DNA from: Streptomyces drozdowiczii
Lineage (GTDB): Bacteria; Actinomycetota; Actinomycetes; Streptomycetales; Streptomycetaceae
Direction of reading: 5' to 3'
Assembly (NCBI RefSeq): GCF_026167665.1
Contig: NZ_CP098740.1
Location: 5,146,001-5,210,000 of the forward strand
Length of the DNA: 64,000 nt
This document shows positions 11,782-63,495 of this stretch, piece after piece. The notes under the pieces are model-generated. The model was not told where the DNA came from, ran no database searches, and worked only from the letters and a program-made list of their open reading frames with translations. The position numbers and the translations under genes are program-made. The first letter of the stretch is position 1, and every line of letters starts with the position of its first letter.

Positions 11782-12541
11782 GGCTGTGTTTCTCCCTCGG
11801 TGGCCGTGGCTGGAGCTTTCACTCTAGGGCCTCCGCCGTCGCGCCTGTAGCGGCCCCAGGCGTACAGGAAGCCGGTCGCGAAGCCGACGACGTGGGCCAG
11901 GTACGCCACGCCCGGGCCGCTCCCCGCGCCCTCGGCGGCCAGCCACTGGAGCACGAACCAGAAGATCAGCACCACCCACGCGGGAAAGCGCAGCGGCAGG
12001 AACAGCAGGAACGGGAAGACGCTGGTCACCCGGGCCCGGGGAAGAGGTAGAGGAACGCCCCGAGCACCGCCGAGATCGCCCCCGAAGCGCCGACGAGCGT
12101 CTGGTCGGACGTGGCGTGCGCGGCGGCGTACGCGAGCAGCGCGAGGTAGCCGCAGCCCAGGTAGAACAGGGCGAACTCGGTGTGCCCCATGCGTTCCTCG
12201 GCCATCGCGCCGAACACGTAGAGGAACAGCATGTTCCCCAGCAGGTGCAGCCAGCTGCCGTGCACGAACAGCGCGGTGAACGGGGTGAACAGCGCGTGCG
12301 CCGAGCCGTCCCACAGCTCGCTCGGGATCACACCCCACCGCTCGAAGTAGCCCGCCTGCGCGGCGAGCAGCGCGTCGGCCCCGCCGCGCACCGGGACGAA
12401 GCCGGAGAGCGGGCTGATCACGAAGACCGCGCAGCACAGGGCGATGAGGGCGTACGTCACCGGCGGCCCGCCCGAAGTGGCCGCCCGAAGGAGCCTGCCC
12501 GCGGCGGCCCGCCGATCGATCATGAACAGAGCATGACGCAA
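11778..12541 (-). pseudogene. Rhomboid intramembrane serine protease, frame broken by one base
   Basis: The sequence encodes a six-helix rhomboid. HGSWLHLLGNMLFLYVFG, the catalytic Ser motif GASGAIS, and the later helix with catalytic His (AYLAHVVGFATGF) are all present, but in two frames. The first frame runs from 12541 to a stop at 12026. The second resumes with RARVTSVFPFLL and ends at 11778. Adding one base to the four-base run at 12038-12041 restores one 254-residue frame. Neither half alone has the full catalytic dyad. Start choice is uncertain: ATG at 12541 or 12523, neither with a good ribosome site. It is probably a sequencing error rather than gene decay. Confidence 0.85.
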
Positions 12542-12682
12542 ACGGAGCGAACGGGACAGACCGCCTCGCCGTGCCGGGCGGACGCACCGAGGCCGTAGGG
12601 TGACGGGTGGACATCCGCAGTTCGACGGCGCACCGCGAGACCCTTGTCCGGCAGCTCACGGCTCGACGAAAGAGGACGCACG

Positions 12683-12925
12683 ATGACGACCGTTCCCCAG
12701 CCGACCGACACGACCCGCTGGCGCTGCACGCTCTGCGGGAACCTCACGCGGTTCGACGTGACGCGGTCCTCGAAGGTCGTGGAGTACGTGCACCTCGACC
12801 TGGCCGGTGAGTCGAGCGTCGAGGAACGCGAGGTGGTCAGTGAGACCATCGAGTCGGTCCGTTGTCGTTGGTGCAACGCGGTGGACCAGATCGAGCTCGT
12901 CGACAGGCCGGGTGCCGACTCCTGA
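12683..12925 (+). CDS. Small zinc-ribbon-like protein
   Basis: An 80-residue acidic protein with two CxxC pairs, CTLCG (near 15-18) and CRWCN (near 63-66), spaced as in a zinc ribbon. The segment between them is strand-rich (KVVEYVHLDLAGE). The start at 12683 is preferred over the upstream ATG at 12644 because AGAGGA lies 8 bases before it. It stands 35 bases upstream of the NYN-domain gene in the same direction and is probably co-transcribed. It resembles conserved actinobacterial hypotheticals; no function is known to me. Confidence 0.85.
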   Translation: MTTVPQPTDTTRWRCTLCGNLTRFDVTRSSKVVEYVHLDLAGESSVEEREVVSETIESVRCRWCNAVDQIELVDRPGADS

Positions 12926-12960
12926 CGGGGCCGTGCGGAGACAACACAATGGGGTGACGG

Positions 12961-14325
12961 ATGGTGGAGCAGCCCGAGGGCGGCGCCGCGTCGGCCGACG
13001 GGGCCGACGACGCCGTGGAGGCGCTCGACCGCCCGCTGCCCGAAGGGGTACGGCGCCGGGTCGTGGCGCTGGTGTCCGACGCGTTCGGCGGTCTCACGGT
13101 CGCCGAACTGCCCGCCCAGCTGAGGCAGTACGCCCGCTTCACGGCCTCCCGGCGCGCCAAGTTCGCCGGGAACGCCATGGCGGCCGCCGTGGCGAACGAC
13201 GAACGGTTCCGCCGCCGCATCGCCGACCGGCTGAGGGAGGCCCAGCCGGAGCTGGCGGGTGCCCTGGAGTCCGGCGCGCCGCCCGCCGCGGCCGATCCGG
13301 TGGACGTGGCGGCGGCGGCGTACGTGCTGCGCCCGGACGGCTGGGTGAAGCTCGTCGCCGCGGCCGGCGAGGAGGTCCAGCGCGCGGACGCCGAGCGGGC
13401 CGGCGAGGAGAGCCGGCGCGAAGTGGCGCGGCTGCGCGAGGAGCTGGCCGAGGCCCGGGCGCACACGAAGACTGAGACGGAACGGCTCCGCGTCGAGCTG
13501 GACGCCGCCCGCAAGGAGGCGGACTCCCTCCAGCGCAAGCTGCGCAGCGCGCTCAGCGAGGTCAAGCGCGGTGAGGCGGCGCTGCGCAGGTCCAAGGCCG
13601 AGACCGAGAACGTACGCGCCGAGGCGGCCGCGCAGGTGTCCGCCGCCGAGAGCGAGACCCGGCGGCTGAGGGCGCGGCTCGGGGAGGCGGAGGCGTCCGT
13701 CGAGGCGAGTCGCAGGGCGGCCCGGGAGGGGCGCTCGGTCGAGGACATGCGGCTGCGGCTGCTGCTCGACACGGTGCTCGAAGCGGCCGGCGGACTGCGG
13801 CGCGAACTGGCGCTGCCGCCGTCCTCGATGCGGCCCGCGGACAGTGTGGACGCGGTGGAGCCCGGCCGGATGTCGCCCAAGGACATCGCGGCCAGGGCCC
13901 TTTCGGAGACCGACCCGGCCCTGCTCGACCAGCTCCTGGAGCTGCCGCAGGCCCATCTGATCGTGGACGGCTACAACGTCACCAAGACGGGTTATCCGCA
14001 GATGCCGTTGGAGAAGCAGCGGCTGCGGCTGCTCGGCGGGCTCTCGGTCCTCGCGGCCCGCACGGGCGCGGAGATGACGTGTGTGTTCGACGGGGCGGAG
14101 CTGGCCGCCCCGGTGCTCCTCGCGCCGCCGCGCGGGGTGCGGGTGCTGTTCAGCAAGCCGGGGGTCACCGCCGACGAGCTGATCCGCCAACTGGCGCGCG
14201 CGGAGCCGCCGGGGCGGCCCGTGGTGGTGGTCTCCACCGACCGCGAGGTGGCCGACGGAGTGGCGAAGGCGGGGGCCAGGCCCGTTGCGTCCGCCTTGCT
14301 CCTGAAGCGGCTTTCGCGGGTTTAG
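12961..14325 (+). CDS. NYN-domain (PIN-like) RNA-processing protein with coiled coil
   Basis: A 454-residue protein in three parts: an N-terminal helical region (1-150) with no clear family, a long charged coiled coil (about 155-280, heptads of E/R/A), and a C-terminal NYN/YacP-type domain (about 325-454). The nuclease-like acidic residues are visible in LIVDGYNV (about 334), CVFDGAE, and VVVSTDREVADGV. The family includes Rae1/YacP endoribonucleases that act on ribosome-associated mRNA. RNA cleavage is therefore a reasonable inference, but the substrate is unknown. It follows the zinc-ribbon gene closely. Confidence 0.88.
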   Translation: MVEQPEGGAASADGADDAVEALDRPLPEGVRRRVVALVSDAFGGLTVAELPAQLRQYARFTASRRAKFAGNAMAAAVANDERFRRRIADRLREAQPELAGALESGAPPAAADPVDVAAAAYVLRPDGWVKLVAAAGEEVQRADAERAGEESRREVARLREELAEARAHTKTETERLRVELDAARKEADSLQRKLRSALSEVKRGEAALRRSKAETENVRAEAAAQVSAAESETRRLRARLGEAEASVEASRRAAREGRSVEDMRLRLLLDTVLEAAGGLRRELALPPSSMRPADSVDAVEPGRMSPKDIAARALSETDPALLDQLLELPQAHLIVDGYNVTKTGYPQMPLEKQRLRLLGGLSVLAARTGAEMTCVFDGAELAAPVLLAPPRGVRVLFSKPGVTADELIRQLARAEPPGRPVVVVSTDREVADGVAKAGARPVASALLLKRLSRV

Positions 14326-14440
14326 CGCCCCTTGCGGGGAGTTCGGCCGAGATCAGGGAACGGACCGTCAAGTCACCGCTACACGCCGTGGGGTGTGGGT
14401 AAAGAAGTGCCGTGTGTGACGAGATTTTTCCTGTGAGGAT

Positions 14441-14470
14441 TTGAACTGATCACAAGATGGTCACTAGGGT
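14441..14470 (+). promoter_or_regulatory. Candidate vegetative promoter for the NlpC/P60 leader
   Basis: TTGAAC (14441-14446), an 18-base spacer, and TAGGGT (14465-14470). The predicted transcription start is within a few bases of the structured leader that begins at 14475. Confidence 0.55.
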
Positions 14471-14474
14471 CGGG

Positions 14475-14593
14475 CCTCGAACCTTCGCGCGGTCGATCAC
14501 CCACCCGGGGTGGCGGCGAAGGAACCGCCGAGTCCGTGACGTGCACGGAGCCGGGGATCCCCTCCCCCCACAGATCCGGTAGGCGGCTCGAGG
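14475..14593 (+). ncRNA. Probable ydaO-type (c-di-AMP) riboswitch
   Basis: A structured leader closed by CCTCGA (14475) with TCGAGG (14593). Inside is a stem CCTTCGC/GCGAAGG, then the segment GAAGGAACCGCC, a TCCGTG..CACGGA hairpin, GGGGATCCCC, and AGATCCGGTAGGC. The order GGAACCGC, hairpin, GGGAT-CC, CCGgaGGC matches what I recall of the T. tengcongensis ydaO aptamer. In Streptomyces ydaO elements precede cell-wall hydrolase and resuscitation-factor genes, which fits the NlpC/P60 gene here. Not checked against a covariance model. Confidence 0.7.
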
Positions 14594-14595
14594 AA

Positions 14596-14611
14596 GAAGG
14601 AGCTCGCCTTC
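14596..14611 (+). promoter_or_regulatory. Hairpin that can hide the ribosome binding site
   Basis: GAAGG (14596-14600) pairs with CCTTC (14607-14611) across AGCTCG, directly before the GTG start at 14612. The ribosome site AAGGAG (14597-14602) is inside this stem, so the leader may control translation. Confidence 0.5.
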
Positions 14612-15637
14612 GTGGCGTCCCACCGTCGTCCCAAGCAGCCGAGCCGCACTCGTGTGACCGTGCTCACCGCGACCGCAGCCGCGGCCGTCGCCCTGTCCTC
14701 CCAGGCCGCTCACGCCGACCCCAAGCCGACCAAGAACGAGGTCAAGGCGAAGGTCGACAAGCTCTACCACGAGGCCGGAGCGGCCACCGAGCAGTACAAC
14801 GGGGCGAAGGAGAAGCAGGAGAAGCTCGAGAAGCAGATCGGCGCGATCCAGGACAAGGTGGCCCGCGGCCAGGAGGAGCTCAACCAGCTCCGGTCCGGCC
14901 TCGGTTCCCTCGCCGCCGCGCAGTACCGCTCCGGAGGCATCGACCCCTCCGTACAGCTGTTCCTCTCCTCCGACCCGGACAGCTTCCTCGACCAGGCGTC
15001 CGCGCTCGACCAGCTGACGGCCAAGCAGACCGAGGCCCTGTCGAAGGTCCAGGAGAAGCAGCGGGCCCTCGCGCAGCAGCGCAAGGAGGCCCAGGACAAG
15101 CTGAGCGACCTCGCCGCCGTCCGCAAGACGCTCGGTGAGAAGAAGAAGCAGCAGCAGGCCAAGCTCACCGAGGCGCGCCAGCTGCTCAACACCCTCACCG
15201 CCGCCGAGCGCGAGAAGATGCGCCAGGACGAGGCCCGCGCGAGCCGCGCCGCCGGCACCCGGGTCGAACTCGGCAACGAGGTCGCCGCCTCCGGTCTCGG
15301 GAAGGCCGCCCTCAACGCCGCCGCCACCCGCCTGGGCAAGCCGTACGTGCCCGCGGCCACCGGCCCCAACTCCTTCGACTGCTCGGGCCTGACCATGTGG
15401 GCGTACGCCCAGGCCGGCGTCAACATCACCCGCACCACGTACACCCAGGTCAACCAGGGTCACCGGATCGGCGTCAGCCAGCTGGCCCCCGGCGACCTGG
15501 TCTTCTTCAACGGCAACGAGCACGTCGGCCTCTACGCGGGCAACGGCCAGGTCCTGCACGCCCCGTACCCCGGCGCCTACGTCCGCTACGAGTCGATGAG
15601 CACCATCGGCAGCATCTACGCCGCCGTGCGCATCTGA
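14612..15637 (+). CDS. NlpC/P60 peptidoglycan endopeptidase with coiled coil
   Basis: A 341-residue secreted cell-wall hydrolase. The signal peptide (about 1-36) ends at SQAAHA. A long coiled coil (about 45-215) resembles the regulatory helices of RipA and FtsX-linked hydrolases, and an NlpC/P60 domain follows (about 230-341). Catalytic Cys257 is in FDCSGL and His304 is in NEHVGLY. It cuts between D-Glu and the diamino acid in peptidoglycan stems. It starts at GTG behind AAGGAG, downstream of a probable c-di-AMP riboswitch. The next gene is a close paralogue. Confidence 0.95.
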   Translation: MASHRRPKQPSRTRVTVLTATAAAAVALSSQAAHADPKPTKNEVKAKVDKLYHEAGAATEQYNGAKEKQEKLEKQIGAIQDKVARGQEELNQLRSGLGSLAAAQYRSGGIDPSVQLFLSSDPDSFLDQASALDQLTAKQTEALSKVQEKQRALAQQRKEAQDKLSDLAAVRKTLGEKKKQQQAKLTEARQLLNTLTAAEREKMRQDEARASRAAGTRVELGNEVAASGLGKAALNAAATRLGKPYVPAATGPNSFDCSGLTMWAYAQAGVNITRTTYTQVNQGHRIGVSQLAPGDLVFFNGNEHVGLYAGNGQVLHAPYPGAYVRYESMSTIGSIYAAVRI

Positions 15638-15680
15638 ACCGCGCCCGAACGGGCGAATTCCCGCGCCCCGTACTGACGCC

Positions 15681-15719
15681 CGCCCCGCCGGAGACCACAG
15701 GTCACCGGCGGGGCGTCAC
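15681..15719 (+). terminator. Intrinsic terminator after the first NlpC/P60 gene
   Basis: CGCCCCGCCGG (15681-15691) pairs with CCGGCGGGGCG (15705-15715), leaving a 13-base loop. It separates the two NlpC/P60 paralogues into different transcripts. Confidence 0.65.
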
Positions 15720-15750
15720 TGTGTGTGGCCCCCACCGGTCCGGCGCGTCT

Positions 15751-15780
15751 TTGTCCGCTCCGTGATCACGCGGCTACTGT
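15751..15780 (+). promoter_or_regulatory. Candidate promoter of the second NlpC/P60 gene
   Basis: TTGTCC (15751-15756), an 18-base spacer and TACTGT (15775-15780). This would give a leader of about 90 bases, which has hairpins but no recognised riboswitch. Confidence 0.4.
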
Positions 15781-15874
15781 CTGCCTGCTGTCACGGCTCC
15801 CGTACGTCGGTCCGCCCGCCCGGGCGGCAGGGGCCGCGCGCGTCTGCGGACAGCGGAAGGGAGTGCGGCGTCCT

Positions 15875-16906: not shown

Positions 16907-16934
16907 GCCCGGCGACAGCCCGTACGCTCGTCAT

Positions 16935-25395: not shown

Positions 25396-25853
25396 ATGAG
25401 CGAAGCCACCGATCGCCCCGCCGACGAGGACGCCTGGGCCGACGCGTGCGCCGAGGACCTCGCCGCCGAGCAGGCCCGCCGCCGCGCCGCCTACGGGCCG
25501 CCGCCCGGCACCGCCGCCGAGGAGCTGCGCAAGCTGGTCGACGCGGTGGCCGACAAGCTCGGCTCGTTCCAGGCGCCGCTGCTCGGCATGGCCGCGCAGG
25601 GGGCCGTGCAGCAGGTCATCCAGCAGGCCAAGGCGGCCGTGGAGCCCGTCATCGAACGCAATCCGGACGTTTTCGATCACATCGCGGCGGCCGGTAACGA
25701 ACTGCTCGCCGCCTACCGCTCCGCGGTCCAGGGCCAGGAAGGCCGCTGGACCCGGGGGCGGGGGACCCCGCGGGCACCGAAAAGAAGGCGGAAGGCCCCG
25801 AAGGCCCCCGGGACGAGGGGTCCGGCGCCGGCGAACACATCGACCTCGACTGA
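25396..25853 (+). CDS. DUF5304 protein upstream of glucokinase, frame probably broken near its end
   Basis: The N-terminal 117 residues (MSEATDRPADEDAWADAC..., ending AYRSAVQGQEGRW) match the small acidic actinobacterial DUF5304 protein that usually precedes glkA (SCO2127 in S. coelicolor, as I recall, linked with carbon catabolite repression). As written, the frame then turns basic (TPRAPKRRRKAPKAP) and runs to 25920. Adding one G at 25754-25764 gives an acidic tail ending in GEHIDLD with a stop at 25851-25853, total 152 residues. That end fits the family and avoids overlap with the glucokinase leader. Glucokinase starts 75 bases later. Confidence 0.75.
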
Positions 25854-26869: not shown

Positions 26870-26914
26870 GCCCACCCGCGCATCCGAACGCCGGACGCCC
26901 GTCGCGCCCCGGGA

Positions 26915-27080
26915 GTGTCCGCGAAGTGGCGTCGTCCGCCCGAAGGGCGGGGCCTGCGGCGTCTGGTGCGTGCTCTCGCAAGGCGCCGGGGTGTCCTCGT
27001 AGCGGAGCTACTTGGGCACCCCGGCAACGCCGCGAGAGTGCGTGCCAGGCGTCGTGGGCCGGACGACACTTCGCGGACAC
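26915..27080. repeat. 166-bp imperfect inverted-repeat element
   Basis: Two arms of about 80 bases run from GTGTCCGCGAAGTG at the left end to its exact complement CACTTCGCGGACAC at the right end. They meet at GTAGC-GGA-GCTAC in the centre. Inner matches include CTCTCGC/GCGAGAG and CCGGGGTG/CACCCCGG. The left arm has an extra local hairpin (CCGCCC-GAA-GGGCGG). It encodes no plausible protein. It may be a miniature mobile element, a strong bidirectional terminator or a structured RNA. It fills nearly all of the glkA to next-gene gap. Confidence 0.8.
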
Positions 27081-27118
27081 GACCTGGGAGCGGCGGGCGT
27101 CCGCCGTATCGTGAGGGC

Positions 27119-27876
27119 ATGGCCACGATGTCGCTGCCCGATTCGTGCACCGAGCCGGACGGCTCGGCCGTCATCCGCGTGCTCAGCTACAACATCCGCT
27201 CGATGCGCGACGACCGCGGCGCCCTCGCCCGGGTCATCCGCGCCTGCGCCCCCGATCTGGTCCTCGTCCAGGAGGCGCCGCGCTTCTTCCGCTGGCGCAA
27301 GTACGCCGCCCGGCTCGCCGCCGCCACCGACCTGGTGATCCTGGGCGGGGCGCCACCGCCGCCGGGCCGCTGCTGCTGTGCTCGCTGCGCGCCACCGTCG
27401 AGCGCACCGAGGACATCCTGCTGCCGCGCACCCCGGGGCTGCACCGCCGGGGCTTCGCCACCGCCGTCGTCCGGTTCGCGGGCGCCCGGGTCGGCGTGGT
27501 CAGCTGCCACCTCAGCCTCCAGCGGCAGGAGCGGCTGGCCCAGGCCGAGCGGCTGACGGAGACCGTGGACGCGCTGGGCGTGCGGCACGCCGTCGTCGCC
27601 GGCGACCTCAACGACGTACCGAGCGGGCGGGCCTTCCGGCGGCTGGCCGGGCGCTACCAGGACTGCTGGGAGGTGAAGCCGCAGGGCGGCGAGTACACCT
27701 TCCCGGCGCACGAACCGCGCCGCCGGATCGACGCCGTCTTCGCCACCGGCGGCATCGAGGTCCTCGGCTGCGGGGTCCCGGACGGACTGCCCGGGGTGCG
27801 CGAGGCCGACCTGCGGGCGGCGACCGACCACCGCCCGGTACTGGCCGCACTCCGGGTGCCCGCAGACACCCCCTAG
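27119..27876 (+). pseudogene. Endonuclease/exonuclease/phosphatase family protein, frame broken by one base
   Basis: Motifs of a DNase I-like phosphoesterase are split over two frames. VLSYNIRSMRDDRGALARVI and VLVQEAP (frame from 27119) hold the metal-binding Asn and Glu. After the run at 27347-27350 the second frame has VVSCHLSLQ, AGDLNDVPSG and TDHRPVLAAL with the catalytic His/Asp residues. One added G rejoins them (VILGGGATAAGPLLLC) into about 252 residues. The second half lacks its own start. The stop overlaps the stop of the convergent gene in a shared CTAG. A sequencing error is the likeliest cause. Confidence 0.85.
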
Positions 27877-28529
27877 ACCACCGCGCCCCGCCCCGGGTCG
27901 TCGTCGCCGTCCTCGTCGGAGTCCATCCGGGCCACCAGCGTCACGAAACCGCCCAGGAAGCCGCCGACGCAGACCGTCGTCAGCCACCAGGTCATCTCCC
28001 AGGACAGCAGCACCGCGAGCAGCATCAGCACCGGCCCGCCGACCACCGCGAGCCAGGCGAACTTCGCCGTGACGTCGGCCTCCGGCAGCGGCGGCGGCTC
28101 CGGCGGCACGAAGTGCCCCTCGTCGTCGTCCCCGCCGCCCGGGGCGGCCGCGTCCGGGTCGGCCGGCTCGTAGTCGCGCGGGCCCACGCCCGGAGCGAAG
28201 ACCACGGAGCCGCCCAGCGGCCGGTCCTCCTCCGGCTTCGGCTTGGGCGGCCGCTTGCCGAGCCCCTTGTCCGCGGCCGGGGCGGTCAGCGGACCGTCGT
28301 CCGGCAGCGCCAGATCCTCGATCGACCGGAAGGGCCGCGCGCCCGGCGGGTCCGGCGGCTCCTCCCCGTAACCCTCCACGATGGCCCGCCAGACGGCCTC
28401 CTCGTCCAGCGCTCCGTCACCCGCACCGGCCACCGGGGCGCCGGCCTCGTCGGCGACGGCCGCCCCCTCCACGGGGAGCGGCTCGCGCTCCTCCTCGCTG
28501 CCCGCGCGCTCCGCGTCGTGCTCAGCCAT
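27873..28529 (-). CDS. Acidic protein with two C-terminal membrane helices
   Basis: A 218-residue protein with a disordered, acidic, proline-rich N-terminal region (about 1-155) and two helices at the end (about 157-180 and 184-204), followed by an acidic tail. As written it is fused in frame to the preceding hydrolase. However, AGGAGGGGG lies about 9 bases before ATG 28529, so it starts independently. No family with known function is recognised. It probably forms an operon with the alpha/beta hydrolase. Confidence 0.75.
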   Translation of the reverse strand: MAEHDAERAGSEEEREPLPVEGAAVADEAGAPVAGAGDGALDEEAVWRAIVEGYGEEPPDPPGARPFRSIEDLALPDDGPLTAPAADKGLGKRPPKPKPEEDRPLGGSVVFAPGVGPRDYEPADPDAAAPGGGDDDEGHFVPPEPPPLPEADVTAKFAWLAVVGGPVLMLLAVLLSWEMTWWLTTVCVGGFLGGFVTLVARMDSDEDGDDDPGRGAVV

Positions 28530-29303
28530 CGGACGTACCCCCTCCTGATTCTTCTCGCTCGGAGCGAGGCGGCCGATGAACGCATGACTCTCGTCGAAGA
28601 TCCGCTTCGCATCATGGTCCAACGTCGCGACGTGATAGCTCTGTTCCAGCAGGACCTCCCGGACATCCGTCGAGGAGACCCGGCTCAGGATGCGGGCCGT
28701 GTCGGCGGGCGGCACGACGTGGTCCTGCGGGCTGTGCAGCAGCAGGAGCGGCTGGGTGACCTGGGGGAGGTCGCCGTCGACCAGCCGGAAGAACCGGCGC
28801 ACCGAATGCGCCGCGTGCAGCGGCACCCGTTCGTACCCCACCTCCGCGACACCCTCCAGGGCGATGTCGCTGACCAGGCCCTTCGTCGTCGGCACCAGAT
28901 GGCGGACCACCGGCAGCGCGTGCGCCGCGAGGCCGTGCACCTTGTTGGCCGGATTGACGAGCACCAGACCGCTCACCGCGTCCCCGTGCTTCGCGGCCAG
29001 CCGCAGCGCCAGCGCACCGCCCATCGAGAGCCCGAAGACGAACACCCGCTCGCAGCGCTCCAGCAGCCCGCGGAGCTCCCGGTCCACCTCCGCGTACCAG
29101 TCCTGCCAGCCGGTCACCTGCATGTCCTGCCAGCGCGTGCCGTGCCCGGGGAGCAGCGGCAGCGACACCGTCAGGCCGCGCTCGGCCAGATACTCGGCCC
29201 AGGGGCGCAGCGACTGCGGGGAACCGGTGAATCCGTGACAGAGGAGGACGCCGACCGCTCCGCCCTCGTGGCGGAACGGCTCGGCTCCGGGAAGGACCGG
29301 CAC
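28522..29303 (-). CDS. Alpha/beta hydrolase (esterase or monoacylglycerol lipase type)
   Basis: A hydrolase of about 260 residues with CHGFTGSP (oxyanion region), the nucleophile elbow GLSMGG, the acid in HSPQDHVVPP and the catalytic His in SYHVATLDHD. This is the order of bacterial esterases such as Est30 and monoacylglycerol lipases. The start at GTG 29303 is favoured by CAGGAG seven bases upstream; an in-frame GTG at 29336 is possible. As written, the frame reads into the next gene. Adding one base in the run at 28538-28542 gives a natural end EGGTSDG and a stop at 28522-28524 that overlaps the next start. Confidence 0.82.
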
Positions 29304-30295: not shown

Positions 30296-31521
30296 ATGGT
30301 CAAACGCGTACGCGTGGTCCGGATGTCCGTGGAGCAGCCGCTGTGGCGCGCCCTGACGGCGTACCGCGTGCTGACGATGGCCTATGCGGTCCTGCTCGCC
30401 GCCTTCGCCCGGCACGACTACGAGCGGCCCTGGATAGCGATCACCTTCCTGTCGCTGATGGCGGTCTGGACGCTCGCCACCCTGCCGAAGGTGGGCAGCG
30501 CCGCCGCCTGCACCAGGCGCTTCCTGGGCGCGGACCTGGCCCTCGCCCTCATCGGGATCCTGGTCACCCCGCTCGCCGACCTCCAGGCGCAGCACGTCGA
30601 CGGGCCGACCCTGCCGTCCATCTGGACCGCCGGTTCCGTGCTGGCCTTCGCGATCAAGGGCGGCTGGCGCTGGGCGGGCTTCGCCTCCAGCCTGGTCGCC
30701 GTCGCCAACCTCATCGAGCGCGGCGAGCCCAGCCGCGACACCCTGCACAACGTGATGCTGGTCTGGGTCGCCTCCATCGCCATCGGTTACGTGGTGGAGG
30801 TCGCCCGGGCCAGTGAGCGCACCCTCGCCCGCGCCCTGGAGATCGAGGCCGCCACCCGCGAACGGGAACGCCTCGCCCGGGACATCCACGACGGCGTGCT
30901 CCAGGTCCTCGCGATGGTCCAGCGGCGCGGCGCCGCGATCGGCGGCGAGGCGGCGGAGCTCGGCCGGATGGCCGGGGAACAGGAGGTCGCCCTGCGCACC
31001 CTGGTCTCCAGCGGCCTGGTGCCGCCCACCCGGCTCTCCGAGGACGCCTCCGAGGGCGCCGTCGTCCGGACCGTCGAGACGGACGAGGACGAACCGGCCG
31101 ACGGCGGCGAGACCGACCTGCGGACGCTCCTCGCCCCGCACGCCGGATCCCGGACCAGCTTCGCGGAGCCGGGCGCCCCGGTGCTGCTGCCCTCCGCCGC
31201 CGCGGCGGAACTGGCGGCCGCGGTCGGCGCGGCGCTGGACAATGTCCGGGTGCACGCGGGCGAGGGCGCCCAGGCGTGGATCCTGCTGGAGGACTGGCCG
31301 GACGAGGTCGTCGTCACGGTCCGGGACGACGGGCCCGGCATCCCCGAGGGGCGGCTCGCGCAGGCCGAGGGGGAGGGGCGGCTCGGGGTCGCCCTGTCGA
31401 TCCGCGGCCGGCTGCGCGACCTGGGCGGTACGGCAGAGCTGATCTCGGTGCCCGGACAGGGCACCGAGGTGGAATTGAAGGTTCCCAAGGTTTCACGGGG
31501 AAGGCGGGATCGGTCCGATGA
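30296..31521 (+). CDS. macS: Sensor histidine kinase, MacS type
   Basis: A kinase of about 408 residues. The N-terminal region holds about five membrane helices (about 20-165). The HisKA_3 dimer/phosphoacceptor segment is ERERLARDIHDGVLQVLAMV (His near 200). An HATPase domain follows (N-box around LDNVRVH, G-box DDGPGIPEGR). Position and partner match MacRS (SCO2120/2121, as I recall, controlling morphology and actinorhodin). As written the frame has no stop until 33295. One added G at 31497-31500 gives an end SRGKAGSVR with TGA at 31519-31521, overlapping the regulator's ATG. Confidence 0.85.
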
Positions 31522-32210
31522 ACGCGACACACGAAGAGGGCACCGGGCAGCCGGCGATCAGAGTGATGGTGGTGGACGACCACCCGATGTGGCGGGACGC
31601 GGTGGCCCGCGACCTCACCGAGGCCGGGTTCGACGTGGTGGCCACCGCGGGCGACGGGCCCCAGGCCGTCCGCCGGGCCGGCGCCGTCACCCCGGACGTC
31701 CTGGTCCTCGACCTCAATCTGCCCGGCATGCCCGGGGTGCAGGTCTGCAAGGAACTCGTCGGCAGCCAGCCCGGGCTGCGGGTCCTCGTGCTCTCCGCCA
31801 GCGGCGAGCACGCCGACGTCCTGGAGGCCGTCAAGTCCGGTGCCACCGGCTACCTGATGAAGTCGGCGAGCACCCAGGAGCTGACCGAGGCCGTCCGCCG
31901 CACCGCCGCCGGAGACGCCGTCTTCACCCCGGGCCTGGCGGGCCTGGTCCTCGGCGAGTACCGCAGGCTGGCCTCGGAGCCCGCACCGGCCGCGTCCGAC
32001 GAGCCCAAGGCGCCGGAGCTGACCGACCGGGAGACCGAGGTGCTGCGGCTCGTGGCCAAGGGGCTCTCGTACAAGCAGATCGCGGAGCGGCTCGTCATCT
32101 CGCACCGGACCGTGCAGAACCACGTCCAGAACACCCTGGGCAAGCTCCAGCTGCACAACCGGGTCGAGCTGGTGCGCTACGCCATAGAGCGCGGACTCGA
32201 CGACGTCTAG
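31518..32210 (+). CDS. macR: NarL/LuxR-family response regulator, MacR type
   Basis: A 230-residue two-component regulator. The receiver (about 14-130) has VVDDHPMW with acidic residues, phosphoacceptor Asp in VLDLNLPGMPG, switch Ser in VLVLSASGEH, and Lys in GYLMKSAST. The C-terminal LuxR helix-turn-helix (about 165-225) contains LTDRETEVLRLVAKGLSYKQIA. It is coupled to macS by an ATGA overlap if the kinase frame is corrected. S. coelicolor MacR is the likely orthologue on the basis of synteny. Confidence 0.93.
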   Translation: MNATHEEGTGQPAIRVMVVDDHPMWRDAVARDLTEAGFDVVATAGDGPQAVRRAGAVTPDVLVLDLNLPGMPGVQVCKELVGSQPGLRVLVLSASGEHADVLEAVKSGATGYLMKSASTQELTEAVRRTAAGDAVFTPGLAGLVLGEYRRLASEPAPAASDEPKAPELTDRETEVLRLVAKGLSYKQIAERLVISHRTVQNHVQNTLGKLQLHNRVELVRYAIERGLDDV

Positions 32211-32290
32211 GGCCTGTCCGGCGCGGCGGGGCCGGTCGCCGTATATTCGCGGGGACCGGCCGCGCCCAGCACGCAGACAGGGGAGACGTC

Positions 32291-33295
<1,005 letters not shown>

Positions 33296-33318: not shown

Positions 33319-35186
33319 TCAGCCGCGCACCGGCAGCCCCGCCAGCAGCTCGGAGACGATCGCCGCCCCGCGCAGCGTCAGCACCGACTCCGGGTGGAAC
33401 TGCACCGAGGCGAACCCGGCCCCGCGCAGCGCGTGCAGCTCCCCGGACACCTCGTCCCGGCTCGCCTCGATGCCGTGCGCCGCGAGCTCCGCCGCCCCGG
33501 AGTCGTCGCAGCGCGCGGTGTAGCTGTTGTAGAAGCCGACCGTCTCGGGCCGCCCGAACAGATCGATACGGGTCTGCGCCCCCTGGTACGGCACCGCTTT
33601 GCGGACGATCTCCAGGCCCAGTTCGGCCGCGATCAGCTCATGGCCGAGGCACACCCCGAGCAGCCCGTGCCGGTGGTCCCGGACCAGCTCGGCGGCCATC
33701 GCGCGGAGGAACCGCATCTTCGGGTCGGCCGCGTCCGCCGGATTCCCCGGGCCGGGCCCGAGCACCACGGGCCCCTCGTGCGCCCGCACCGCCTCGCGCA
33801 GCCCCGGCTCGTCGTAGCGGCGCACGGTGACGTCGAGCCCCGAGGCGCGCAGCAGGTGCCCGAGCATCGCGGTGAACGTGTCCTCGCCGTCCACCACCAG
33901 GGCGTGGCCGGTGCGGTCGGCGGCGCGCTCCTGCATCCGCAGCCAGAACGGGGCGAGCCCGTCCCGCCGGGCGTCCAGGGCCGCCCGCACCCGGGGGTCG
34001 GCGGCCAGCCGGGGCCGCTCCCGCTCCGCCTCGGGGCGGGCCGGGCGGACGCCGAGGGCGGCGAGGACGCCGGCCGCCTTGGCGTGGGTCTCGGCGACCT
34101 CGCTCTCCGGGTCCGAGTGGCGGACCAGGGTGGCCCCGACCGGCACCCGCAGCGTGCCGTCCGCGTCGATGTCGGCGGTCCGGATCAGGATCGGCGAGTC
34201 CAGGGTCTGGCCGCCGTCGCCCTCGCGGCGCAGCAGGGCCAGCGCGCCCGCGTAGTAGCCGCGCCCGCCGTCCTCGTACCGCTCGATGACCCGGCAGGCG
34301 TTCTGCACGGGGGAGCCGGTGACGGTCGCCGCGAACATGGTCTCCCTCAGCACCTCCCGTACGTCCAGCGAGGAGCGTCCGCGCAACTCGTACTCGGTGT
34401 GCGCGAGATGGGCCATCTCCTTGAGGCGCGGGCCGATCACCACACCGCCCATGTCGCCGACCGTGCACATCATCTTCAGCTCCTCGTCGACCACCATGGA
34501 GAGCTCCTCGGTCTCCTTGCGGTCGCCGAGGAAGGCGAGCAGGCTCTCGGGGTCGGCCCCTCGGCGGGGTAGCGGTAGGTGCCGCTGATGGGGTTCATCA
34601 CGACGGTCCCGCCGGACATCCGCACATGCACCTCGGGGCTGGCGCCGACGAGTACACGGTCGCCGGTGTGCACGACGAACGTCCAGTACGCGCCCCGCTC
34701 GCCCGCCAGCAGCCGCCGGAACAGGGCCAGCGCGTCCGCCCGGCCGAAGCCGTCGATCCGGCCCCGGAACGTCCGCCGGATCACGAAGTTGGCGCCCTCG
34801 CCCCGGCCGATCTCGTCCTCGATCACCCGCCGCACGGTGTCGGCGTACTCCTCGTCGCTGACGTCGAACTCCCCGTCGTCCACGCGGACTTCGTGGCGGG
34901 GGAGCGCTTCCAGCGCCTCGGTCAGGGACAGCGTGTACGCCTCGTCCGCGACCAGGACGGACAGCGGAGTGCCGTCGTCGCGTACGTCGAAGCCGCGTTC
35001 CGCGATCTGCCGGAACGGCACCAGCGCCAGCGACGGCAGCTCGCCCACGGGGATGCCGGCGAGGCGGTCCGCCTCGTGCACCCGGCCGATCAGCACCTCG
35101 ACGGTGTCGTGGTCGTGGCCGGGGGTGCGGCGGCGCAGCAGGGCGAACGGCGGGCAGTCGTCGCGCAGGAGTCGGTCGAAGCTCAT
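33319..35186 (-). pseudogene. trpE: Fused anthranilate synthase TrpE-TrpG, frame broken by one base
   Basis: This is a large fused anthranilate synthase. The chorismate-binding part (MSFDRLLRDDCPPFALL... SGTYRYPAEG, then ESLLAFLGDRKETEELSMVVDEELKMM... FAATVTGSPV) is joined to a class I glutamine amidotransferase with nucleophile motif GVCLGHE and FHPES near the end. Adding one base in the run at 34557-34560 joins the frames at PAEGADPESLL and restores about 622 residues. It makes anthranilate from chorismate and glutamine. A leader peptide with three Trp codons and an attenuator lie directly upstream. The enzyme should be essential for Trp prototrophy, so the break is likely a sequencing error. 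Confidence 0.9.
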
Positions 35187-35433: not shown

Positions 35434-38234
35434 CTAGAACAGGGTGTCGTAGATCTGCCAGCCGTCCCCGACCTGCGACTTCGTCGCGAACGGGGCCGTC
35501 ACCTTGCCGGTGGAGTGGTAGAACCAGAAATCTCCGGCCGAGTCCACGCCGACCAGGTCGCCCCGGCCGTCACGGTCCAGGTCGCTCGGGCCGAGCAGCA
35601 GCTTGTACTTGCCCCAGCCGGTACCGATCTTGACCCGCTTGTCGTACGGGGCGGAGGCCGAGCCGGTGCCCGTGTAGATCCACAGGGTCCCGGACTTGTC
35701 CCGGGCCACGAAGTCGGCCTTGCCGTCGCCGTTGAGGTCGCCGGTGGAGACGATCTGGTCGTAGATCTGCCAGCCGTACCCGATCTTCACCTTGGGGGCG
35801 AAGGGCTTCTCCGGGGTGCCGGTGCCCTTGTAGAAGTAGATGTCCCCGGCGGCGTTGCGGGCGATCATGTCGGCCTTGCCGTCCGCGTCCAGGTCGCGCA
35901 TGCCGTTGAGGCTGCTGTACTGGTTCCAGCCGCTGCCGACCTTGAGCCGGGCCATGTACGGCTTGTCCGGGTTGCCGCTGCCCCGGTAGTACCAGAGGAC
36001 GCCGTCCTTGTCCCGGGCCACGAAGTCGCCCGTACCGTCCGCGCGCAGCGCGGTCATGGCGGTCATCACGGTGTAGCCGCCCCAGCCGTAGCCCGCCTGG
36101 TAGCGGCGGTAGTACGGGGAGGAGGCGCTACCGGTGCCCTGGTACTGCCAGATCCGGCCGGCGCTGTCGCGGCCGATCATGTTGTAGCGGTCGGTGGCGG
36201 AGACCGGCGCGACGCTCGTGGAGGTCTGGACGTCGCTCGCCTTCACCCACGCCTGGCGGTGGTTGTAGTTGATCGGCAGATAGGACGTGGAACCGATGAC
36301 GTCCGTCTGGGCCGAGCCGAACCAGTCGTCGCCCTTCGCCTCGGCACCGGCCAGCGTGTACCCCTGGCCCGAAGGCAGCGTGTACTTGGTCAGGTAGTCC
36401 GGGTTGTCCGTCGGCGCCTCCAGGCCCGCGGCCTCATAGGCGGCGGTCTCCGGGTAGGCCCGCCCGTAGATCCGGACGGTCACCCCGGCCTTGGCCTTCA
36501 CCACGCGCGGGGCCGCGGCGAGCGGCACGGTGTACTGGCCGCCCGGGTTGTAGAACCACGCCTTCTTGCCGCCGTACCAGATCGCCGTCCAGTCGGCCTT
36601 GGCCTCGGCGACGACATAGGTGTCGCCGGCGCGGACCTTGTTCGACCAGTTGGAGCCCTCGCTCCACAGCGCCGAGAAGTACGGATCGCTGAGCGTGGTC
36701 GCGCTGGTGGACGCCGAGGTGTACAGGTAGCCGAAGTTCGCCGGCTGCGTGGTGACCGCCTTGGAGCCGGAGGTCAGCTTCGGCTGGTTGGCCGTGGTGA
36801 ACGGCGGCACCACGCGCACCAGCTGCCCCGCCTTGACCGGGCCGCCGGCGCCGCTCGCGCCCGTCGGGGCGCCCATCAGGCCCATGAAGTGGTTCCAGTC
36901 CCAGAACGGGCCCGGGTCCCAGTGGGCCCCGCGAACTTGTCGTTCAGAGCGACGGGCACCGCGTCGTGGCCGATGATGTGCTCACGGTCGATCGGGACGC
37001 CGTACTTGTCCGCCAGGAACTTCACCAGGGCCGAGGAGGACTCGTACTGCGGCTCCGTGTACCACTTGCCCTCCTTGATCGCGTAGCCCTCGTGCTCCAC
37101 GCCGATCGAGTGCATGTTCAGGGTCCAGTTGCCCGCGTGCCACGCCAGGTCCTTGTTCTCGACCATCTGCGTGACCAGGCCGTCCGACGCGCGGATCAGG
37201 TAGTTAGCGCTGGCGGCCGCACTCGGGCTGGTGAGCGTGGCGAGCGAGCTCGCGTAGTCGCCCTCGGTGTCGTGGATCACGATCTGCCGGATGTCGACGC
37301 CCTTGTCGGGGCGCACGGCGGGCGTGTAGGCGCGCTGGCCCGTGCTCGACGTCTTGGCCTGCACGAAGTTGCAGTTCAGACCGGACGGGCACTCCGGGGT
37401 GGGGGTCGCGGCCGTGCTCGCGAAGGACGCGGCCAGCGGCACCTTCGCCGGCTTGACCGGCTGGACCGACGGGTCGGCGGGCAGCGAGACCTGCTGGCCG
37501 TCCTGGGTGACCGCGCTCTCGCCCGTACGGATCGAGTCGAAGACGCGCTTCGCGAAGAGGTCGGCCCCCTTCTTGTCCGGCGACTGGCTGAACCGCGCCA
37601 CCGCCGGATACCACTGCGCGGCGTCGTCCGACAGGGAGCCCTTGGCGTCGCGCTGGTACTCGGCGAGGAGGGCCGCGCCCGCGCGGATGCTGTCCTCGGT
37701 GTCGTCGCGTACCGAAGCCGTGTCCGTGTCGATCAGCCCGGCGGCCTCGTCCAGCGTGTGCAGCCGGGGGTCGGTGGTGTCGACCGTCTTCTTCGGCAGG
37801 TCGCGCAGCGCCTTCGCGGCGTCGAAGGTCTTCTCGATCTCCGGCCGGCCGGACATGTTCATGTGCGCCAGACGCTCCGCGTCCGTCGGCTGCTCCACGT
37901 CCCCGGCCGCCACGCTGGTGAGCCCCATGACGTTGTACGCACCCGTCGTGCTCGGCTCCCCGTCGTGGCTCTCCCACCGCGTCTGCCGGTACGAGACCGC
38001 CATCAGCACGCTCTGCGGTACGTCGAACTCACGGGCCGCGTCCTCGAACTGGGCCTGGAGCACGGCGGACGGCGAGGCGGCCTTGGCGGTCCCCGGGTCC
38101 GGGTCCTGCGCGGCCATGGCCAGGGTGCCGATCGTCGCGGTCGCGACCACGGCGGCACCCGCCCCGATCAGCAGCCGTCTCTTCTTGAGGTCCTTACGGT
38201 GATTCCGCTTCAAGTCCCCACCCTCGATGTCCAC
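35434..38234 (-). pseudogene. Secreted N-acetylmuramoyl-L-alanine amidase with VCBS/FG-GAP repeats, frame broken by one base
   Basis: This is a large secreted hydrolase. A basic, hydrophobic export signal (KKRRLLIGAGAAVVATATIG) is followed by a helical region and an amidase_2 domain with zinc-type motifs IVIHDTEG, IGVEHEGYA and HIIGHDAVP. A bacterial beta-propeller of about five FG-GAP/VCBS repeats (DLNGDGKADFVARD-like) ends the protein. The frames split at 36924-36930. One added base gives FAGPHWDPGPFWDWNHFMG and joins both parts into about 933 residues. GTG 38234 is given as the start; TTG 38213, directly behind GGGTGGGG, is equally plausible. Likely a sequencing error. Confidence 0.88.
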
Positions 38235-58944: not shown

Positions 58945-59343
58945 GTGCCGCTCTCGGAGCACGAGCAGCGAATGCTCGAGCAAATGGAGCGAGCGCTGTA
59001 CGCCGAAGATCCCAAGTTCGCGACAGCGCTCGAGGGAAGTGGGCTGCGTACGTACACCCGGCGACGGGTCTACCAGGCGGTCGCTGGCTTTCTGGTGGGT
59101 ATCGCGCTCCTCATGGCCGGAATGGTCGCTCAGCAGATCTGGATCAGCGTGGTGGGCTTCCTCGTCATGCTGGGCTGCGCGGTGCTCGCGGTCACGGGAT
59201 GGCGCAAGGCGCCCAAGCCGGGCGAGCAGCAGTCGGTGCGCGCGGGTGGCGCGGGCGACCGCAGGCAGTCCCGTCAGCGCCGGTCCGTGATGAACCGGAT
59301 CGAACAGCGGTGGCAGCGCCGCCGCGACGAGCAGGGACAGTAA
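58945..59343 (+). CDS. DUF3040 membrane protein
   Basis: A 132-residue protein with the DUF3040 signature at the N-terminus (PLSEHEQRMLEQMERALYAEDPKFATAL), two helices (about 46-66 and 70-88) and a basic tail. The start is GTG 58945 with GAGGAGGA 4 bases upstream; the frame extends to 58828, but the conserved domain starts here. In Streptomyces this gene is usually near the dcw cluster. Function unknown. A strong terminator follows. Confidence 0.92.
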   Translation: MPLSEHEQRMLEQMERALYAEDPKFATALEGSGLRTYTRRRVYQAVAGFLVGIALLMAGMVAQQIWISVVGFLVMLGCAVLAVTGWRKAPKPGEQQSVRAGGAGDRRQSRQRRSVMNRIEQRWQRRRDEQGQ

Positions 59344-59360
59344 CCACAGAACGCTTCAGC

Positions 59361-59397
59361 TGAAGGGGCGGCCGCCGACCGGGCGGCCGCCCCTTCA
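59361..59397. terminator. Bidirectional terminator after DUF3040
   Basis: TGAAGGGGCGGCCGC pairs perfectly with GCGGCCGCCCCTTCA (15 bp) around a 7-base loop, 17 bases after the DUF3040 stop. The 260 bases between it and the end of the transglutaminase gene contain no convincing gene. Confidence 0.75.
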
Positions 59398-59658
59398 CGC
59401 GTATGGCCGCCCCGGGCGGCCGACACCGTTGGCACGGGCCCGTCCGCGTGGTGGCGCGCGGCCCGGCGCGCTGCGCCTGCGCGGGGGTGCGTCCGGGCCG
59501 AGGCCCCCGACCCCCCTGGGCGTGGGGGACCAGCGCAGCCCCGTGCGGCGTCGGTCCGTACGGCGGCTGCCCTTCGGGGCCCCCGCCCGCGGGCGGCCGT
59601 CCCGGGCCGGGGCGCACACTGCCCGGCCGGCGCAGGCCCCGGGCCGCCCGCGGCCCCC

Positions 59659-62070
59659 TCAGCCTTCCTGGCGGGACGGGCGCCGGGTCCATGCCGGGCG
59701 CGGTGGCAGGTGGAAGCGGGCCGACAGGGCCGTTCGGCGCCTGGACAGGGCCCAGGCCACCCGTACGGACGAGCGGGGGGCGAGGAGCGCGCGGAGGCGG
59801 GCCGGGCGGCCGGCCGAGAGGGCCAGACCGGTCCGTACCGCCCGCGCGTCCTCGGCGAGGCCCGACGCCGGGCGCGGCTCGGGGGCGTAGAGCACCTGCT
59901 CCACCGCTCCCGCGACCCGGTGCACCGCGTCCGCCGCCTCCGTGTCCAGCCGGCCCAGCCGCACCAGCCGCTCGGCCGCCCGGCGCGGGGTCAGCGCCTC
60001 GTCCGGCGGAATGCCGTGGTCCCACGCCGTGTCGGTGACCTCCCGCCACACCGCCAGCGTCCGCGCGGTCGTGTCGGCGGGGGTGCGGCCGCCCGAGGAA
60101 CCCAGGCGGCGGGCCCGCGCCCGCAGGCGCCAGAACATCGGCAGCAGCGGCAGCAGCAGGACGACCACCACCGCGGCGGCCACGCCCAGCACGGTCCCGG
60201 TCGGCGCCCCCGGGTCGGTCGGCGCGGCGGCACCGGGCGCGGCGGACTGCCCGCACTCGCCCTGCTTGCGCATCTGCGCCGGGCAGCTCTCCGAGGCGGA
60301 CGGCGTGGCCGCGACCGGCGCCGAGGCGTCCGCCTCCGGCCGGGCCGGGTCCGCCGCGTCACCGGTCGGAGCGTCGGGCAGGGTGTACGACGGGACGGAG
60401 CCCCGCGTCGGCGTCGGCTCGAAGCGCGTCCAGCCGATCCCCTCGAAGTACAGCTCGGGCCAGGCGTGCGCGTCGCGCAGCCCCACCGAGTACGAACCGT
60501 CCGCCTGCGCGCTGCCCGGGGTGAAGCCCACCGCGACCCGGGCCGGGATGCCCAGCGTCCGGGCCATCGCCGCCATCGTGAAAGAGAAGTGGACGCAGAA
60601 GCCCTGCTTGTCCTTCAGGAAGCGGGCGATCGCCGCGCTGCCCGTACCGGAGTCGACCGAGGTGTCGTACCTGAACCCGCCGTCGGTGGAGAAGTAGTCC
60701 TGGAGCTTCACCGCCCGCTCGTAGGAGTTGGCGGCCCCCTTCGTGACCTCGTCGGCCGTCCGCGCGACCACCTTCGGCAGCGAGTCGGGCACCTGCGTGT
60801 ACTCGCGCAGGAGTTCCGGCGGCACCGCGCCCGCGCGGGCGAGCTGGTCGGACGTCGGCTGCACATCGAGGCTGGTCACCGTGTACTGCGCGCCGCCGGT
60901 GGTCTCCCCGTCGTCACCGACGAGGGTGCGTCCCTCCGGCTCGAAGCGCCACCGGCCGCCGATCCGCACCTCGGACGCCGGATAGGGCAGCGGCAGATAC
61001 GTCTGCTTGTAGGAGGCCGACGCCGAGACGGTCGACCTGATCTCCGCGACCGCGACGGACGAGGACAGCCCGGCCGGAGTCGGCAGCCGCTTCGGCACGT
61101 CCTGGAGCTTGCGCGTCGAGGCACGCCACTCGTTCCCGTTGAACTGGTCCAGGGCCAGGATGCGCAGATAGAAGTCGCCCGGACTGCTCGCGTCGGTGCG
61201 GTACGACATGACCTGCCGGTTCTCCGGCTGGTTGAGGTTGTCCTGGAGCGAGACCAGCGGGTTCACCGCGGAGATCGTGCCGCCCCCGCCACCCCTGCCG
61301 CCTCCGCCGCCCGCACCGGCCAGCAGGCCGCCGTCGAGCGCCGGCAGCGCCGCGGGCACCACGAGCGCGATCCCGAGGGCCACCGCCCCGATCCGGCGCC
61401 CCGTGCGGACCGGGGCCGCCGCCCGGCCGCCGCCCGTGGTGTCGAGCCCGGCGGACGAGCCCCGGGGCCGCGCGGCGCCCGCGAAGACCCGGCCCCACTG
61501 GGAGAGCCGGTCGCGCCCCTCGGCCAGCAGGAGCAGCAGATAGCCGCAGGCGGCCAGGAGGAACCACAGCCAGCCCGCACTCCCCTCCGCCAGCCCGGCG
61601 GCCACCGAATACAGCGCCAGCAGCGGCAGCCCGGCGGGCGCGGCGCTGCGGAACGTCACCGCCAGCGTGTCCACCAGAAGACCGACCAGCAGGACACCGC
61701 CCACCAGCATCAGCCGGATGCCCGGGGTCGCCGGTGCCGGGATCGCGTACCGCCCGACGTCTTCGCCGCCGGCCGTGAGCAGGTCCACCAGCTGCCGCAG
61801 GGCCTGCGGTCCGGGCAGCACGCCCGCCACCGCCTGCTCCCGGGCGAACGCCACGGTCAGCAGCACCACCATGACCAGCGCCTGGGCGGCGGCCGTCAGC
61901 AGCCGGGGCAACGGCACCCGGCGGCCCAGCACCCCCACCCCGCACTGCACGGCCAGCAGGAACGCCGCCTGCACGAGCCAGCTCACCGGGTCCACCAGCG
62001 GCAGCATCGAACAGGACGCCATCAGCGTCGCCGCGAAGGCGGCCAGCGCCAGCCGGCCCCGACCGCTCAT
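59659..62070 (-). CDS. TgpA-like transglutaminase membrane protein
   Basis: An 803-residue protein with several N-terminal helices (about 7-215, including LVQAAFLLAVQCGVGV and GIRLMLVGGVLLVGLLVD). A periplasmic-side transglutaminase-like domain (about 480-580) has catalytic Cys in QGFCVHFS, His in DAHAWPELYF and Asp in the EPTP region that follows. A helix (about 640-660) and a cytoplasmic DUF4129-like tail come next. The gene is part of the MoxR-DUF58-TgpA operon found in many bacteria and linked with envelope functions. It starts at ATG 62070 overlapping a short repeat-encoded frame. Confidence 0.92.
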   Translation of the reverse strand: MSGRGRLALAAFAATLMASCSMLPLVDPVSWLVQAAFLLAVQCGVGVLGRRVPLPRLLTAAAQALVMVVLLTVAFAREQAVAGVLPGPQALRQLVDLLTAGGEDVGRYAIPAPATPGIRLMLVGGVLLVGLLVDTLAVTFRSAAPAGLPLLALYSVAAGLAEGSAGWLWFLLAACGYLLLLLAEGRDRLSQWGRVFAGAARPRGSSAGLDTTGGGRAAAPVRTGRRIGAVALGIALVVPAALPALDGGLLAGAGGGGGRGGGGGTISAVNPLVSLQDNLNQPENRQVMSYRTDASSPGDFYLRILALDQFNGNEWRASTRKLQDVPKRLPTPAGLSSSVAVAEIRSTVSASASYKQTYLPLPYPASEVRIGGRWRFEPEGRTLVGDDGETTGGAQYTVTSLDVQPTSDQLARAGAVPPELLREYTQVPDSLPKVVARTADEVTKGAANSYERAVKLQDYFSTDGGFRYDTSVDSGTGSAAIARFLKDKQGFCVHFSFTMAAMARTLGIPARVAVGFTPGSAQADGSYSVGLRDAHAWPELYFEGIGWTRFEPTPTRGSVPSYTLPDAPTGDAADPARPEADASAPVAATPSASESCPAQMRKQGECGQSAAPGAAAPTDPGAPTGTVLGVAAAVVVVLLLPLLPMFWRLRARARRLGSSGGRTPADTTARTLAVWREVTDTAWDHGIPPDEALTPRRAAERLVRLGRLDTEAADAVHRVAGAVEQVLYAPEPRPASGLAEDARAVRTGLALSAGRPARLRALLAPRSSVRVAWALSRRRTALSARFHLPPRPAWTRRPSRQEG

Positions 62071-62129
62071 GACCGCCCCCTCAAGCCCAGCCCTCTCGGG
62101 CCCAGCCCCCTCAAGCCCAGCCCCCTCAT
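62067..62129 (-). CDS. 20-codon repeat-encoded frame between DUF58 and transglutaminase
   Basis: A possible peptide MRGLGLRGLGPRGLGLRGRS. Its ATG overlaps the DUF58 stop (ATGA), and its own TGA overlaps the transglutaminase start (ATGA). It is made of 15-bp tandem units. Whether it is a real protein is unknown; it could keep ribosomes moving between the two genes. Confidence 0.35.
   Translation of the reverse strand: MRGLGLRGLGPRGLGLRGRS
62071..62126. repeat. 15-bp tandem repeat in the DUF58-transglutaminase junction
   Basis: About four copies of a 15-bp unit (CCCTCAAGCCCAGCC and variants with CTCTCGGG or CCCTCATGA) lie end to end. The outermost copies contain the two stop/start overlaps, which suggests that expansion of a repeat split one ancestral ATGA overlap into two. 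Confidence 0.75.
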
Positions 62130-63495
62130 GACCAACCCCCGAAGCCCGCCGGGCCGGCCGCGGCGCCGGACCCGGCCACCGCACCGTGCCGGGCCGCCAG
62201 CCGCCACAGCTCGGCCAGCCGCGCGCCGGGCTCCGCCGAAACCACCGTCCACCCCGCCTCGCGCAGCACCCGCAGCCGCCGCTCCGCCGCCTCCCGGGAG
62301 GCGGGCGAATCGCCGTTCACCCAGGCGGCGCTGTCCAGGACGAAGGCCACGGCCCCGCCGCTGCGCTGCCGCATCCGGGCGGCCATCCCGGCCTGCTCCT
62401 CGTCCAGATCGCCGAGGAAGGCGATCAGCAGCCCCTCGCCGCCCCCGCGCAGCACGTCGTGGGCCCGGGAGAGACCGCCGCCGTCGGAGTGCCCGATCTC
62501 CGCGAGGGTGTCCATCATCAGCCCCGCCGCGTCCGCGGTGGCCTGCGTGGCACCGGCGAAACCGCCCTCGCCCTCGCCCGGCACCGCGTCCCCCGCGTCC
62601 GTCAACAGCCGGACCGCGAAGCCGCGCTCCAGCATGTGCACCAGCGCGGACGCCGCACCGGAGACGGCCCACTCGAACGCGGAGTCCGGCCCCGACCCCC
62701 GGTAGGCGGTCCGGCGGGTGTCCAGCAGGACCGTGCACCGGGCGCGCTGCGGCTGCTCCTCGCGGCGCACCATCAGCTCCCCGTAGCGCGCGGTGGAACG
62801 CCAGTGGACCCGGCGCAGATCGTCCCCGTAGCGGTAGCCGCGCGGGATCACGTCGTCGTCACCGGCCAGCGCCAGGGACCGCTGGCGCCCCTCGCCGTAT
62901 CCGGAGGACTCACCGGCCAGCGGCGCGGGGGCAGCGGTTCGGTGCGGGGGACCACGACCAGGGTGTCGTAGGCGCTGAACGAGCGGGTCAGCTCGCACAT
63001 GCCGAAGGGGTCGCTCAGCCGCAGTTGCAGCGGGCCGAGCGGATAGCGCCCGCGCAGGTCGGACCGGACCCGGTAGGACACCTCGCGGCGCCCGCCCGCC
63101 TCCACCCGGTCCAGCACGAAGCGGGGCCGCGGCCCGAGCACGTACGGCACCCGGTCCTGGAGCATCAGCAGCCCCGTGGGCAGCCGCGAGACGTTGTCCA
63201 TGCGCAGGTGGACGCGGGCCTCGGAGCCGGCCGGGACGCGCGAGGGGGAGAGCCTGCGGGTGCCCGTGACCCGGTAGCGGGTCCGGTGGAGCACGGTCAC
63301 GGAGACCAGCGGCAGCACCGCGAGCAGCAGCCCGACCCGCAGCAGGTCGCCCTGGCCCAGTACGTAGGCGCAGACCGCCGCCGCGATCCCGGCCGCGAGG
63401 AAGGACCGGCCACGGGTCGTCAGGCCGCCGAGCGCGGCCCGCAGGCCGCCCTTGTCGTCCCCGTCCACCGCCACGGGCCCCGACGCGGCCATCAC
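62126..63495 (-). pseudogene. DUF58 protein, frame broken by one base
   Basis: Two N-terminal helices (RSFLAAGIAAAVCAYVLG and LLLAVLPLVSVTVLH) precede a beta domain. The DUF58 signature is VHWRSTARYGELMVRREEQP, followed by a VWA-like region (VLLDTRRTAY). Helix and beta parts are in one frame from 63495; the signature is in another that ends at 62126. Adding one base in the five-base run at 62937-62941 joins them (EPLPPAPLAGESSGYGEG) into about 456 residues. Either half alone would lack needed parts. Usually paired with MoxR; likely a sequencing error. Confidence 0.88.

Follow-up and report, generated by a model that had tools for sequence, protein, structure and literature searches.

Eight genes in a 64,000-nucleotide stretch of Streptomyces drozdowiczii DNA (bases 5,146,001 to 5,210,000 of a 7,386,614-base single contig, referred to as the window; G+C 72.5%) are each interrupted by a change of reading frame in or beside a short run of G or C. 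The question raised by this locus is whether the organism carries eight mutations or the assembly carries eight errors. The breaks are almost certainly uncorrected consensus errors of the assembly, probably arising from homopolymer under-calling, and not mutations. The first-pass annotation had favoured this reading, and it was supported by the occurrence of losses only, the rise of the losses with G/C run length, the presence of breaks in genes that should be lethal to lose, and the near absence of such losses in a short-read relative.

The consensus would under-count G or C runs of about five or more bases, an under-counted run would leave one base missing, and the missing base would shift the reading frame. 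The underlying data probably came from a long-read platform with homopolymer under-calling, followed by insufficient polishing.

Reading Frames at the Eight Sites

The affected genes and the positions of their breaks were as follows.

About 11778-12460, minus strand: rhomboid protease gene, split at a G4 run into two overlapping frames; break at 12038..12041
25396-25853 (frame model), plus strand: DUF5304 gene; break at 25754..25764, a G5-C-G5 stretch
27119-27876, plus strand: endonuclease/exonuclease/phosphatase (EEP) gene; break at 27347..27350, a G4 run
From about 29303, minus strand: alpha/beta hydrolase gene, 3' end; break at 28538..28542, a C5 run
About 30314-31500, plus strand: MacS-type sensor kinase gene (macS), 3' end; break at 31497..31500, a G4 run
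33319-35186, minus strand: trpEG-like gene; break at 34549..34552, a G4 run
35434-38234, minus strand: amidase gene, with Amidase_2 before the break and FG-GAP repeats after it (Pfam); break at 36924..36930
62126-63492, minus strand: DUF58 gene, with the DUF58 domain in the downstream piece; break beside the G5 run 62927..62931

The sequence stretches quoted in the first-pass annotation were found in the window at all eight sites. Each site was then compared with relatives by the net base count within 25 nt of the site, calculated as relative minus window, modulo 3. Control alignments, from 18 coding positions and 14 relatives, had a net count of 0 in 227 of 232 cases.

Nearly all aligned relatives had one base more than the window at six sites, namely rhomboid (19/19; 19 tried), EEP (41/42; 43 tried), hydrolase (22/24, modulo 3; 43 tried), trpEG (39/40, modulo 3; 43 tried), amidase (7/7, modulo 3; 43 tried, 36 without an alignment across the site) and DUF58 (19/19; 19 tried). 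At the DUF5304 and macS sites, the two nearest relatives (L006 and L007) both had one base more, and the frame model also called a loss at DUF5304. The counts over all relatives at DUF5304 (+1 in 13/34) and at macS (+1 in 11/37) were uninformative, because distant relatives differ in the variable linker at the former and the variable 3' end at the latter. The first-pass annotation had proposed that each gene lacks one base and had suggested a comparison with close relatives, by which every site was one base short.

Two of the eight positions assigned to the missing bases in that annotation, those in trpEG and DUF58, had been placed on a neighbouring run, about 8 and 10 bases off, respectively. 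With trpEG, most alignments shown placed the missing base at the G4 run 34549-34552 and not at CCCC 34557-34560. With DUF58, the alignments placed it just left of the G5 run 62927-62931 and not at GTTCG 62937-62941.

Matches to protein profiles were divided by the breaks. Rhomboid profile positions 5-87 and 97-142 were in separate frames, one on each side of the break, as were Chorismate_bind 2-91 and 107-257 around the trpEG break, and Exo_endo_phos 1-39 (weak, under the cut-off) and 96-225 around the EEP break. The DUF5304 profile was matched at positions 1-115 of 143 ahead of the break. The macS open frame in the window extended from 30296 to 33295, a run-on frame that contained both kinase and response-regulator Pfam domains.

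The hydrolase frame, which had a hydrolase Pfam match, passed through the break in the window and was fused with the frame of the next gene into one long open frame. In 34 of 43 relatives, the upstream frame ended at a TGA inside GTGGCTGA (33 relatives) or ATGGCTGA (1 relative); the other 9 did not pass the upstream-frame test, and the upstream end differed in L007. This conserved overlap links the hydrolase stop with the start of the next gene, and the window has ATG there (about 28522-28533). Gene order settles the hydrolase break.

The closest named relative met was Streptomyces sp. A1277, with about 91% identity across the aligned part; it was taken as a short-read assembly from the NODE and coverage name in its record title. 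Its orthologues were single open frames without internal stops in all seven cases checked, its amidase orthologue being one frame of 933 aa; the hydrolase, apart from these seven, was checked by its stop alone.

A ninth break was not found in the window by the A1277 alignment plus the frame model, the latter alone covering the parts of the window without A1277 alignment. Single-base differences at 8647 and 58915 were rejected as breaks, both being upstream of likely starts. The EEP gene and the response-regulator gene that follows macS showed non-triplet indels of 7 bases relative to A1277 at their 3' ends (about 27867 and 32204, respectively), which were taken as natural end variation.

Direction and Run Length of Losses

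The comparison with A1277 covered four stretches totalling about 382,000 alignment columns, with 215,781 of 244,000, 118,207 of 220,000, 17,632 of 60,000 and 30,350 of 40,000 bases aligned (as alignment columns). Gaps with a second gap within 25 columns, flanks with less than 80% identity, the 30 nt at gene ends, genes shorter than 240 nt, and BLAST pieces that were weak or overlapping were omitted from the indel counts. The macS and hydrolase breaks were absent from the coding-core losses because of these filters.

Conserved coding cores (316,891 columns) had 30 isolated single-base losses and 0 gains relative to A1277, one of the 30 being less sure as the A1277 gene model there has internal stops. 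Outside the coding cores, there were 45 losses and 49 gains. Natural indels were thus balanced, whereas the excess in coding sequence was one-sided. The lack of an overall loss excess in non-coding sequence counts against consensus error, although at runs that are at least five bases long in the shorter genome, losses outside the cores numbered 7 and gains 2.

The loss rate increased with the inferred G/C run length: 1/9454, 3/2325, 14/532, 11/66 and 1/2 for lengths 3, 4, 5, 6 and 7, or about 0.01, 0.13, 2.6 and 17% for lengths 3, 4, 5 and 6. The slope is approximate, since the inferred length was the observed length plus one, and since the run chosen for a loss was the longest one of G or C no more than 2 nt from the gap, a choice that favours long runs. 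An inferred run length of five or more accounted for 26 of the 30 coding-core losses, and only part of the runs at each length was affected. By itself, the slope does not tell error from mutation, because mutation by slippage likewise becomes more frequent in longer runs.

Runs of six G or C were only slightly scarcer in this genome, with 23.8 and 22.8 per 100 kb against 31.7 in A1277 and 23.6 to 37.7 across the remaining larger sets. Overall run-length spectra differed little between genomes and would not alone reveal the problem.

A run of C in the 16S rRNA genes had five bases in two of six copies and six in the other four. The same stretch had six in 34 of 35 copies of eight other genomes, the lone copy with five being in G063. 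This difference is weak by itself and only suggestive. The 23S rRNA copies were rejected as evidence of error: their internal indel co-varied with substitutions and looks natural.

The losses could also be artefacts governed mainly by their local surroundings, hairpins or DNA modification for example, rather than by run length alone, which is unlikely. Among affected runs of inferred length five or more, CCC within 8 nt was more frequent than among the others (14/26 vs. 124/574; Fisher P 0.0005), and four pyrimidines were present just upstream in 8/26 vs. 8%; both comparisons were chosen after the sites had been seen, and neither is corrected for multiple tests. The loss rate depended steeply on run length, however, with just part of the runs being affected per length, and no fixed motif common to the 30 sites was seen by eye.

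Distribution Along the Chromosome

The frame model is based on codon usage and allows single-base slips; calls that fell within 45 nt of a gene end were dropped. For the 244-kb region that contains the window, the model called 21 losses. Elsewhere on the chromosome, it called 29 losses in 18 stretches of 20 kb (360 kb) and 19 in 14 more (280 kb), for a total of 69 losses in 884 kb, or 7.8 per 100 kb. With the other genomes, there were 3 losses in A1277 (539,776 bases), 3 in G015 and 7 in G005 (200 kb each), the last two being single-contig genomes. One 20-kb stretch (L211, G005:C1:1200001-1220000) held four of the 7 in G005. From the calls in G005 and G015, either the background of the model or the errors of these genomes themselves are not zero, and genomes such as G005 and G063 may carry some like errors. 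Calls of an extra base numbered 11 in the 884 kb and 8 each in A1277 and G015, with none in G005.

An earlier tally with the same model, on partly shared stretches, had 50 losses in 604 kb vs. 3 in 566 kb of relatives; extra-base calls in that tally were 8 vs. 19, with many of those in relatives located at the hydrolase overlap.

The frame model rate scaled to the chromosome corresponded to 577 losses, and subtraction of the rates in the controls (0.6 to 3.5 per 100 kb) left roughly 320 to 530 breaks. By extrapolation, coding breaks would number a few hundred genome-wide. The window is not special, and the error extends well past it: the genome-wide count of frameshifts that had been suggested in the first-pass annotation, run on samples, returned like losses along the chromosome.

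Essential-Type Genes and Selective Constraint

The NCBIfam scan covered 20 of the 30 A1277 orthologues of genes broken in coding cores. The orthologues scanned included a principal sigma factor of the HrdB type (NF004561; 844 bits against a cut-off of 582), a GyrB/ParE-like subunit (NF004189; 749.9 bits against 740) and FtsW (TIGR02614, above cut-off). They also included a DivIVA-domain protein, for which the domain exceeded its cut-off but the Wag31 model fell short, and a member of the RelA/SpoT family (TIGR00691, slightly below cut-off).

In the genome of the window, the HrdB-like sigma factor (G000:C1:1689472-1690958) was split at about residue 376 of 495 into two frames, with residues 1-376 (98% identical) in one and 373-495 (99%) in the other. 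A second close copy was not found there, the next best sigma factor being 60% identical over part. Deletion of hrdB is described as lethal in one account (PMC6344877).

Substitutions fell at third codon positions in 992 of 1471 cases before the breaks and in 1196 of 1900 after them. A loss of selective constraint after the breaks was not seen, as the third-position coding pattern persisted; this bias by itself is still compatible with very recent mutation. Losses without gains, a rise with run length and a spread along the genome irrespective of gene function, all hallmarks of consensus error, were present. The breaks did not resemble those of pseudogenes: constraint was kept after them and essential-type genes were not spared.

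Real and recent slippage mutations, whether as pseudogenes or as the outcome of a mutator state in a lineage that has no mismatch repair of the MutS/MutL type, are highly improbable. Actinobacteria are not known to have repair of this type. Although genuine slippage likewise prefers longer runs, as was found, and the break sites differ from those of the relatives in the DNA itself, mutation does not account for losses without any gains in coding cores while indels elsewhere were balanced. Nor does it agree with the disruption of the sole close copy of the principal sigma factor and of the GyrB/ParE-like subunit, with a third-position bias that continues past the breaks, or with about 7.8 calls per 100 kb throughout the sampled chromosome.

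A genuine deletion-biased slippage mutator is scarcely credible as an account of the strain; in it, G/C runs would be shortening across hundreds of genes, and products, including the principal sigma factor, would be kept by leaky transcriptional or translational slippage. Programmed frameshifting, which would join both frames and leave the genes intact as written, can practically be set aside: the breaks do lie at short G/C runs, but the shifts at macS and hydrolase merely remove a normal stop, and the two-frame arrangement is not conserved, since all seven A1277 orthologues checked were single open frames.

Comparison With Other Assemblies

Consensus error of this type has precedents in the genus. 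A Streptomyces genome before short-read correction is reported with 205 indels, almost every one of them in a G or C homopolymer (PMC4832174), and three further Streptomyces genomes with 70, 295 and 335 differences on correction, described as mostly single-base homopolymer insertions (PMC6923854). As far as those accounts go, the present genome is like these PacBio assemblies in having single bases missing at G/C homopolymers, and the number estimated here is of the same order or somewhat higher. Nanopore assemblies are described with homopolymer deletions, most of them after runs of four to five, and with many genes falsely frameshifted (PMC12007338). In that description A/T runs dominate, whereas the run-assigned coding losses in this genome were at G/C runs. 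The phenomenon is a data-quality problem of an already known kind.

Annotation, pangenome and pseudogene counts drawn from this genome would hold false broken or run-on genes, an estimated few hundred in all. The signature used here, which needs no reads and consists of coding-core losses only, a run-length slope and breaks in genes expected to be lethal when lost, could be used to flag public genomes.

Other Features of the Window

About 175 bases of the window, from 26911 to 27085, had no counterpart in A1277, OfavH-34-F or S. californicus. Nine other similar places were found in the genome (E 0.001 or better), and the predicted fold of the element was a long hairpin with near-perfect pairing (-154 kcal/mol over 185 nt). 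It is a dispersed palindromic repeat element.

Two riboswitches scored above the Rfam gathering score.

9810-9927, plus strand: SAM-IV riboswitch, 109 bits
46515-46627, minus strand: TPP riboswitch, 62.5 bits
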